A DNA stretch of 64,000 nt from Acidobacteriota bacterium (GTDB lineage: Bacteria; Acidobacteriota; Vicinamibacteria; Vicinamibacterales; UBA2999). Position numbers and translations under genes: made by a program. Each line of letters begins with the position of its first letter. Within the stretch, counting starts at the first letter, position 1. The notes below the pieces were generated by a model. That model saw nothing but the letters and a program-made list of their open reading frames with translations. It ran no database searches and was not told the origin of the DNA. The stretch is taken from NCBI GenBank assembly GCA_018000455.1, contig JAGNJW010000002.1, positions 186,001 to 250,000 on the forward strand, written 5' to 3'. Of this stretch, positions 15,854-55,041 are shown in pieces.

Positions 15854-15876
15854 CTAGCCGCTAGCCGCTAGCCGCT
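15854..15876. repeat. CTAGCCG heptamer tandem repeat, three copies
   Basis: Three perfect head-to-tail copies (15854-15874) plus two bases, in the rpoA-rplQ spacer a few bases after the rpoA stop codon. The same heptamer occurs at 30875-30904 and, in opposite orientation, at 53151-53178. Confidence 0.8.
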
Positions 15877-18519: not shown

Positions 18520-18630
18520 GGGAACCGGGAACGGGGGACAGGGAACAGGAAGACCCTGTCACGCTGTCCGCCACCACGTAGACCGTGGAATCGTTCTTGT
18601 TCCCTGCTCCCTGTTCCCTGTTCCCTGCCC
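18520..18630. repeat. inverted arrays of a G-rich heptamer (GGGAACA type), rpmJ-rpsM spacer
   Basis: Left arm 18520-18552 is a degenerate tandem of GGGAACN units on the plus strand. Right arm 18594-18630 is the same repeat on the minus strand (about five units). About 41 nt lie between, including a small CCAC/GTGG hairpin. In the mRNA, which is minus-strand, the upstream arm has five GGG runs spaced by 2-4 nt, matching a four-tetrad-run G-quadruplex motif, and the downstream arm is C-rich and can pair with it. Related arrays lie at 24004-24105 and 54950-55041. Confidence 0.8.
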
Positions 18631-24003: not shown

Positions 24004-24105
24004 GGGAGCAGGGACCAGGGAGCGGGAAACAGGAAGAGCCTCGCCGGCTCGATCCGCTGTATCCGCATCCGCAGTCCTGTTCCCTGTTCCCTAGTCCCTG
24101 TTCCC
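24004..24105. repeat. inverted arrays of a G-rich heptamer, rpsH-rplF spacer
   Basis: Left arm 24004-24037 has units such as GGGAGCA, GGGACCA and GGGAGCG on the plus strand. Right arm 24075-24105 has GGGAACA, GGGACTA, GGGAACA and GGGAACA on the minus strand. The mRNA-sense strand of the right arm therefore has four GGG runs with 4-nt loops. The two arms can also pair with each other across about 37 nt. Confidence 0.8.
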
Positions 24106-31235: not shown

Positions 31236-31250
31236 GTGCTGTTCCTTGTC

Positions 31251-31275
31251 GAGTCTCGGGTCTCGGGTACGGGGC
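31251..31275 (+). repeat. short heptamer array, fusA-rpsJ spacer
   Basis: GAGTCTC-GGGTCTC-GGGTACG-GGG on the plus strand, ending at the fusA stop codon. It keeps the 7-nt period of the G-rich family but has only three G-runs and no partner arm. Confidence 0.55.
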
Positions 31276-54949: not shown

Positions 54950-55041
54950 GGGGTCAGGGACCTGGGAACGGGGAACAGGGAGCGGCATGACGGCGGACCG
55001 TCGCATCGTCCCTGTTCCCGGCTCCCTGCTCCCTGTTCTCC
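54950..55041. repeat. inverted arrays of a G-rich heptamer, tuf-rpmG spacer
   Basis: Left arm 54950-54985 (units GGGACCT, GGGAACG, GGGAACA, GGGAGCG on the plus strand) and right arm 55008-55041 (GGGAGCA, GGGAGCC, GGGAACA on the minus strand, four G-runs). The two arms can pair over about 22 nt of loop. Third member of the family in the window. Confidence 0.8.

Follow-up and report, generated by a model that had tools for sequence, protein, structure and literature searches.

To our knowledge, the origin of bacterial 7 nt repeats is unexplained, and PF05635 (S23p) is a protein family of solved structure and no known function. The closest described repeats are the GGGAATC heptamers of Xanthomonas, which are inverted, intergenic and G-rich and occur in facing pairs (Rehm et al., 2015; PMC4692102). 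That study found neither a link to a mobile element nor a regulatory role for them, proposed that stem-loop and G-quadruplex may compete, and showed that heptamers related to the unit described below form G-quadruplexes in vitro. In the 23S rRNA intervening sequence (IVS) of Coxiella, tandem GACAGAT heptamers, varying in copy number by strain, lie directly before the S23p gene, and a 28 bp terminal stem is cut by RNase III (PMC4990558). For the TAACTGA heptamer arrays of Beggiatoaceae and cyanobacteria, a mobile element or a repeat-binding protein has been suggested (PMC4679880).

The window analysed here, a stretch of 64,000 nt from the 5.19 Mb genome of an Acidobacteriota bacterium (G000), carries arrays of the heptamer GGGARCA in three spacers of translation genes, as follows:

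18520-18547, plus strand: arm 1 of the rpmJ-rpsM spacer, four GGGARCA units, read inward into the spacer
18548-18597, no strand: loop of 50 nt, without homology to the loops of the other copies
18598-18630, minus strand: arm 2 of the rpmJ-rpsM spacer, four GGGARCA units plus GGGCA
24004-24031, plus strand: GGGARCA arm 1 of the rpsH-rplF spacer
24078-24105, minus strand: GGGARCA arm 2 of the rpsH-rplF spacer
54957-54984, plus strand: GGGARCA arm 1 of the rpmG-tuf spacer
55006-55040, minus strand: GGGARCA arm 2 of the rpmG-tuf spacer

The rpmJ-rpsM spacer consists almost entirely of two facing arms of this degenerate heptamer. The plus-strand arm is built of GGGAACC, GGGAACG, GGGGACA and GGGAACA and lies 25 nt from the rpsM start codon; the G-strand of the minus-strand arm begins 3 nt past the rpmJ stop codon and reads GGGAACA, GGGAGCA, GGGAACA and GGGAACA, with GGGCA as the outermost element. 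An earlier sequence-only reading had described two facing arms of this type inside the ribosomal supercluster, with five GGG runs spaced by 2-4 nt on the mRNA strand and the same design in at least two further translation-operon spacers, and all of this was confirmed, the further spacers being rpsH-rplF and rpmG-tuf. RNA folding of the three spacers gave −66 to −71 kcal/mol (z −4.4 to −6.5), which no shuffled sequence equalled. The loops of these gene-less copies measure about 20-50 nt and contain no gene, and an Rfam search across the window returned tRNAs only. When three mismatches were permitted, the window held 33 double-unit matches, as compared with a mean of 20.6 and a maximum of 32 in 100 shuffles. 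A second family of heptamers in the window, with the unit CTAGCCG, occupies the rplQ-rpoA spacer (15854-15876), and a short TCGGGTC-type array of period 7 lies between rpsJ and fusA (31249-31274).

The repeats share most of their layout with those of Xanthomonas and Nostoc (GGGAATC or GGGGA(C/T)T; Rehm et al., 2015), since in both cases a 7 nt unit is present at least twice, mainly between genes and in facing inverted pairs, with the G-strand starting beside a gene edge and reading into the spacer and with few arrays in divergent spacers; the letters of the GGGARCA arm fit a G-quadruplex motif. The sequence-only reading, which knew of no described family with this unit, had overlooked a published precedent for the repeat type. 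The unit is nevertheless different, other lineages use units that are not G-rich, and a link to PF05635 is absent from the earlier study (PMC4692102). As in the 23S rRNA IVS of Coxiella and Leptospira (PMC4990558), gene-bearing elements consist of a single PF05635 gene within stem-forming inverted repeats, and the window copies have inverted terminal repeats and a predicted RNA stem; in contrast to the IVS, they lie between protein genes and outside 23S rRNA genes, end in multi-unit heptamer arrays, are dispersed over the genome and lack the IVP/S23p gene, the only one of G000 being in another copy. The TAACTGA arrays are likewise dispersed, intergenic and present in ribosomal operons, but they are direct, with almost no inverted pairs, and have no reported IVP link (PMC4679880). 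In the open-access literature, outside which most subscription journals and preprints lie, we found no published link between IVP and heptamers and nothing relevant on the exact GGGARCA unit. What is new here is the tie between inverted heptamer arrays and one gene family, PF05635.

The genome-wide count that the sequence-only reading had proposed gave 110 exact GGGARCA double units in about 30 places of G000 and none for the reversed unit. In 743 kb of this genome, many stretches of which were picked for holding GGGARCA, 7 was the most frequent of the tandem periods from 2 to 15 (48 arrays; period 14 is a multiple of it), while periods 5, 8 and 11 were not found and periods 3, 6, 9 and 12 gave 8-21 arrays each, probably stemming from coding sequence. 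According to the calls of our own gene finder, 41 of 47 GGGARCA arms were intergenic, although 92% of the sequence was coding. The 5' end of the G-strand was the one nearer a gene edge in 39 of the 41 intergenic arms, often within a few nucleotides, and the arms therefore read inward from the spacer borders. Divergent spacers were under-used (4/41 arms vs 86/349 spacers). The exceptions to intergenic placement were one arm at the 3' end of another gene and five arms within dnaE2 (imuC) of the ImuA-ImuB-DnaE2 mutasome (L032 8828-12391, G000:C5), which are in frame at linker positions; the unit in these DnaE2 linkers differs by species, and one such linker is nearly empty in the congener G003. 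CTGGCGG-type arrays also recur in G000 (L034:10863, L063:7155, L065:6014), a genome that lacks an intact IVP gene with that heptamer.

The densest GGGARCA cluster of G000 lies in the imuA-imuB-dnaE2 operon, where a facing pair encloses a small gene of the PF05635 family, coding for a 23S rRNA intervening-sequence protein (IVP/S23p). The protein encoded at G000:C5:11404-11718 scored 107.9 bits against the PF05635 profile (curated cut-off 33.8, E 4e-31), belongs to the four-helix bundles of TIGR02436 and has as its nearest solved structure 2gsc, XCC0516 of Xanthomonas campestris. This gene, between imuB and dnaE2, is the single PF05635 match of the genome. Three members of the genus, G000, G002 and G004, have one PF05635 gene each, which at the imuB-dnaE2 junction is in every case enclosed by facing GGGARCA arrays. 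These genomes contain 110, 30 and 41 GGGARCA double units, respectively. In the congeners G001 and G003 no PF05635 match above the cut-off was obtained, an absence to be read with the fact that metagenome assemblies can miss genes, and their double units number 1 and 3. At the imuB-dnaE2 junction of G003 (L284, G003:C79) we observed an internally deleted IVP remnant, covering PF05635 positions 1-33 with an E value of 2e-4, under the cut-off, and lying between arrays of a GGGGGCT-type unit, which is also the unit of the G003 rpmJ-rpsM spacer. Comparison of the G002 and G004 genes gave a dN of 0.02 and a dS of 0.18, indicating that the IVP gene is under constraint.

We then scored a locus as bracketed when the same heptamer, with no more than one mismatch, formed arrays in inverted order on its two sides within 350 bp. 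Of 101 PF05635 loci, 96 had enough flank, and 59 of these 96 were bracketed, as compared with 3 of 574 comparably sized control genes (1/191 and 2/383; p=6e-55, uncorrected for phylogeny like the other statistics given here). Bracketing was observed at 21 of 30 loci with the best PF05635 matches in the order, a set not selected for arrays, and at 7 of 20 lower-scoring IVP paralogues, the other 13 being unbracketed. It was found at 16 of 30 loci in genomes of other phyla picked by GGGARCA pairs and at 17 of 21 loci from the Dyella order; array-selected genomes supplied all of the former and some of the latter. Arrays on both sides had period 7 at 51 of the 101 loci and any other period from 4 to 12 at 0-5, and the bracketing unit, read inward, was richer in G than in C for 51 of 54 units. 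Bracketed IVP genes occurred in Selenomonadaceae, Clostridiales, Armatimonadota, Chloracidobacterium, Verrucomicrobia, Gemmatimonadota, Nostoc, Moorena, Dyella and Acidobacteria, and PF05635 was present in 19 of 20 genomes fetched solely for facing GGGARCA pairs and in none of 14 control genomes. Inverted heptamer arrays thus bracket IVP genes as one recurring unit.

The heptamer itself is lineage-specific, matches the dispersed arrays within genomes and co-varies with the IVP. GGGARCA was found chiefly in the genus of G000. In the rpmJ-rpsM spacer, same-order relatives carry inverted arrays of GGGACTC-type, GGGGGCT-type, GGTCCTT, GTGCTTG, GCTGGCA or AT-rich units, and some have only a short spacer; the rpsH-rplF spacer is shorter than about 25 nt in many genomes and holds different heptamers in others. 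The 605 kb examined from 33 relatives contained 102 arrays of period 7 and 0-4 of periods 4, 5, 8, 10, 11 and 13. Triples of CAGTTNT numbered 168 in G046, 54 in G052, 25 in G041 and at most 9 in other genomes, and those of GTAGGCA numbered 210 in G008 and at most 12 elsewhere. Units dispersed in the ribosomal region resembled the IVP-flanking units of the same genome (mean 0.37 vs 0.09 permuted, with 0 of 2000 permutations as high), as seen for CAGTTNT and TAGTCGT in G046, CAGTTNT and GGTCCTT in G041, GTAGGCA in G008 and GGTAGCC in G015. IVP copy number correlated with the array density of the ribosomal region (Spearman 0.66, n=33, uncorrected for kinship). The distance between IVP proteins correlated weakly with that between their units, both overall (Mantel r 0.26, p 0.002) and between groups (r 0.16, p 0.012), the two values being uncorrected for phylogeny; a unit was common, within one mismatch, to 69% of IVP pairs less than 30% divergent and to 1% of pairs more than 65% divergent. 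Several IVP paralogues, each with its own heptamer, were present in single genomes (G137, L281 and L283; G041; G046).

The Xanthomonas-type GGGAATC arrays obey the same IVP-linked rule as GGGARCA. In a sample of 200 genomes from the order of Dyella, PF05635 was checked in 13 genomes with GGGAATC at at least four sites and in 15 without, and was present in 13/13 and 5/15, respectively. The IVP was flanked by GGGAATC- or GGGATTC-like units in 10 of the 13 array-bearing genomes, the other three having an IVP with another unit, and in none of the five IVP-bearing genomes without arrays. XCC0516 of X. campestris is likely to be flanked by GGGAATC-like arrays itself.

The copies of the array are intergenic and inward-facing. 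We consider it probable that the rpmJ-rpsM feature belongs, as a copy without a gene, to a family of small selfish elements of IVP and heptamers, related to 23S rRNA intervening sequences. The gene-bearing element would comprise heptamers in tandem, a short gap, one PF05635 gene, another short gap and the same array inverted, with no transposase; each element lineage would have its own heptamer, GGGARCA in G000, and gene-less pairs or single arms of that heptamer would be dispersed among the spacers of the genome concerned. The two arms are predicted to pair in RNA into a long stem, as in 23S rRNA intervening sequences, which probably makes an insertion between genes tolerable even within a ribosomal operon, and this stem may be an RNase III substrate and be cut there. 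The IVP, alone or together with host enzymes of replication or RNA processing, might recognise the heptamers and promote their spread, the arms perhaps being added one by one or copied across a hairpin. We observed no movement of the heptamer elements, nor did we identify an enzyme that would mobilise them. The loops of gene-less copies are homologous neither among themselves nor with the ends of the IVP element, and the copies are therefore not plain internal deletions; a model of that kind, as for MITEs, was rejected because the loops have nothing in common beyond the arm sequence. On a broader proposal we are evenly divided, namely that GGGAATC, the cyanobacterial G-rich heptamers, GGGARCA, the units without G-runs, the 23S rRNA IVS and PF05635 all belong to a single class of mobile elements, so far undescribed and free of transposases, whose four-helix-bundle protein spreads the inverted arrays specific to each element into spacers without reverse transcriptase.

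The main rival to the selfish element is that arrays spread alone, by replication slippage and recombination, and that IVP genes settle preferentially in the loops of inverted arrays already in place, as they do in 23S rRNA hairpins. It would account for loops of unrelated sequence, some of which contain terminator-like hairpins of the host, for orphan units that have no intact IVP gene of their own (CTGGCGG in G000, GGGGCTC in G002) and for spacers in which the unit changes between sister species while the boundaries stay. Nevertheless, array abundance follows IVP presence both in the genus and in the Dyella order, and related IVPs have common units across genomes, so that joint travel of IVP and arrays is the more natural account, and we regard independent spread as unlikely. 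Because the arrays track one specific gene family, the random slippage products that the sequence-only reading had named as its refutation are not supported either.

Selection by the host for intercistronic RNA hairpins, serving RNase III processing or decoupling and with the heptamer repetition as a by-product of slippage, would fit the strong stems and their position between a stop codon and the following ribosome-binding site; the patchy occurrence between sister species, the period of exactly 7, the in-frame arrays within dnaE2 and the association with IVP genes make it improbable. We give still less credence to the switch between hairpin and G-quadruplex, selected to regulate translation operons, that the sequence-only reading had put forward. 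The arm of this unit has at least four GGG runs, the hairpin is strong in all three spacers and related heptamers form G-quadruplexes in vitro (PMC4692102). The hairpin half of that claim stands, with its strong stems, its non-coding position and its repeated occurrence in translation operons. In contrast, units without GGG occur in the same spacers, 26 of 61 units bracketing IVP genes have neither a GGG nor a CCC tract, the corresponding spacer is almost empty in many relatives and Rehm et al. found no regulatory role (PMC4692102). The G-quadruplex was therefore rejected as the conserved feature: the unit turns over, whereas its arrangement and its period of 7 persist, indicating that the G-run is not the conserved trait, and the G-quadruplex potential would be incidental to the GGGARCA unit. 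The least credible account, in our judgement, is a repeat dependent on a RAYT transposase or a reverse transcriptase. The IVP resembles Avd of the diversity-generating retroelements, both being four-helix bundles, Y1_Tnp genes are present in most of these genomes, and REP/BIME elements are also extragenic, dispersed inverted repeats. REP/BIME elements nevertheless lack tandem heptamers, and Y1_Tnp does not follow the arrays, since the array-rich G041 lacks it and the array-poor G001 and G003 have it just as the others do. Likewise, RVT_1 had no match in the array-bearing genomes G000, G002, G052, G110 and G219, suggesting that, unlike for the Avd retroelements, a reverse transcriptase of this family is not needed. 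Both enzymes were rejected as drivers, the reverse transcriptase as far as known RVT_1 enzymes go.

If the selfish-element reading holds, tying PF05635 to the heptamers gives both a testable role, the IVP recognising or spreading a specific heptamer and the arrays being its footprint, and suggests how 23S rRNA intervening sequences entered rRNA genes. Surveys of bacterial G-quadruplex repeats would also read differently, as the presence of a G-run would then be incidental to some of the units. Elsewhere, an array of eight GGGARCA units makes the C-terminal end of the reading frame of an iron-sulfur protein (L052 10940-11929).
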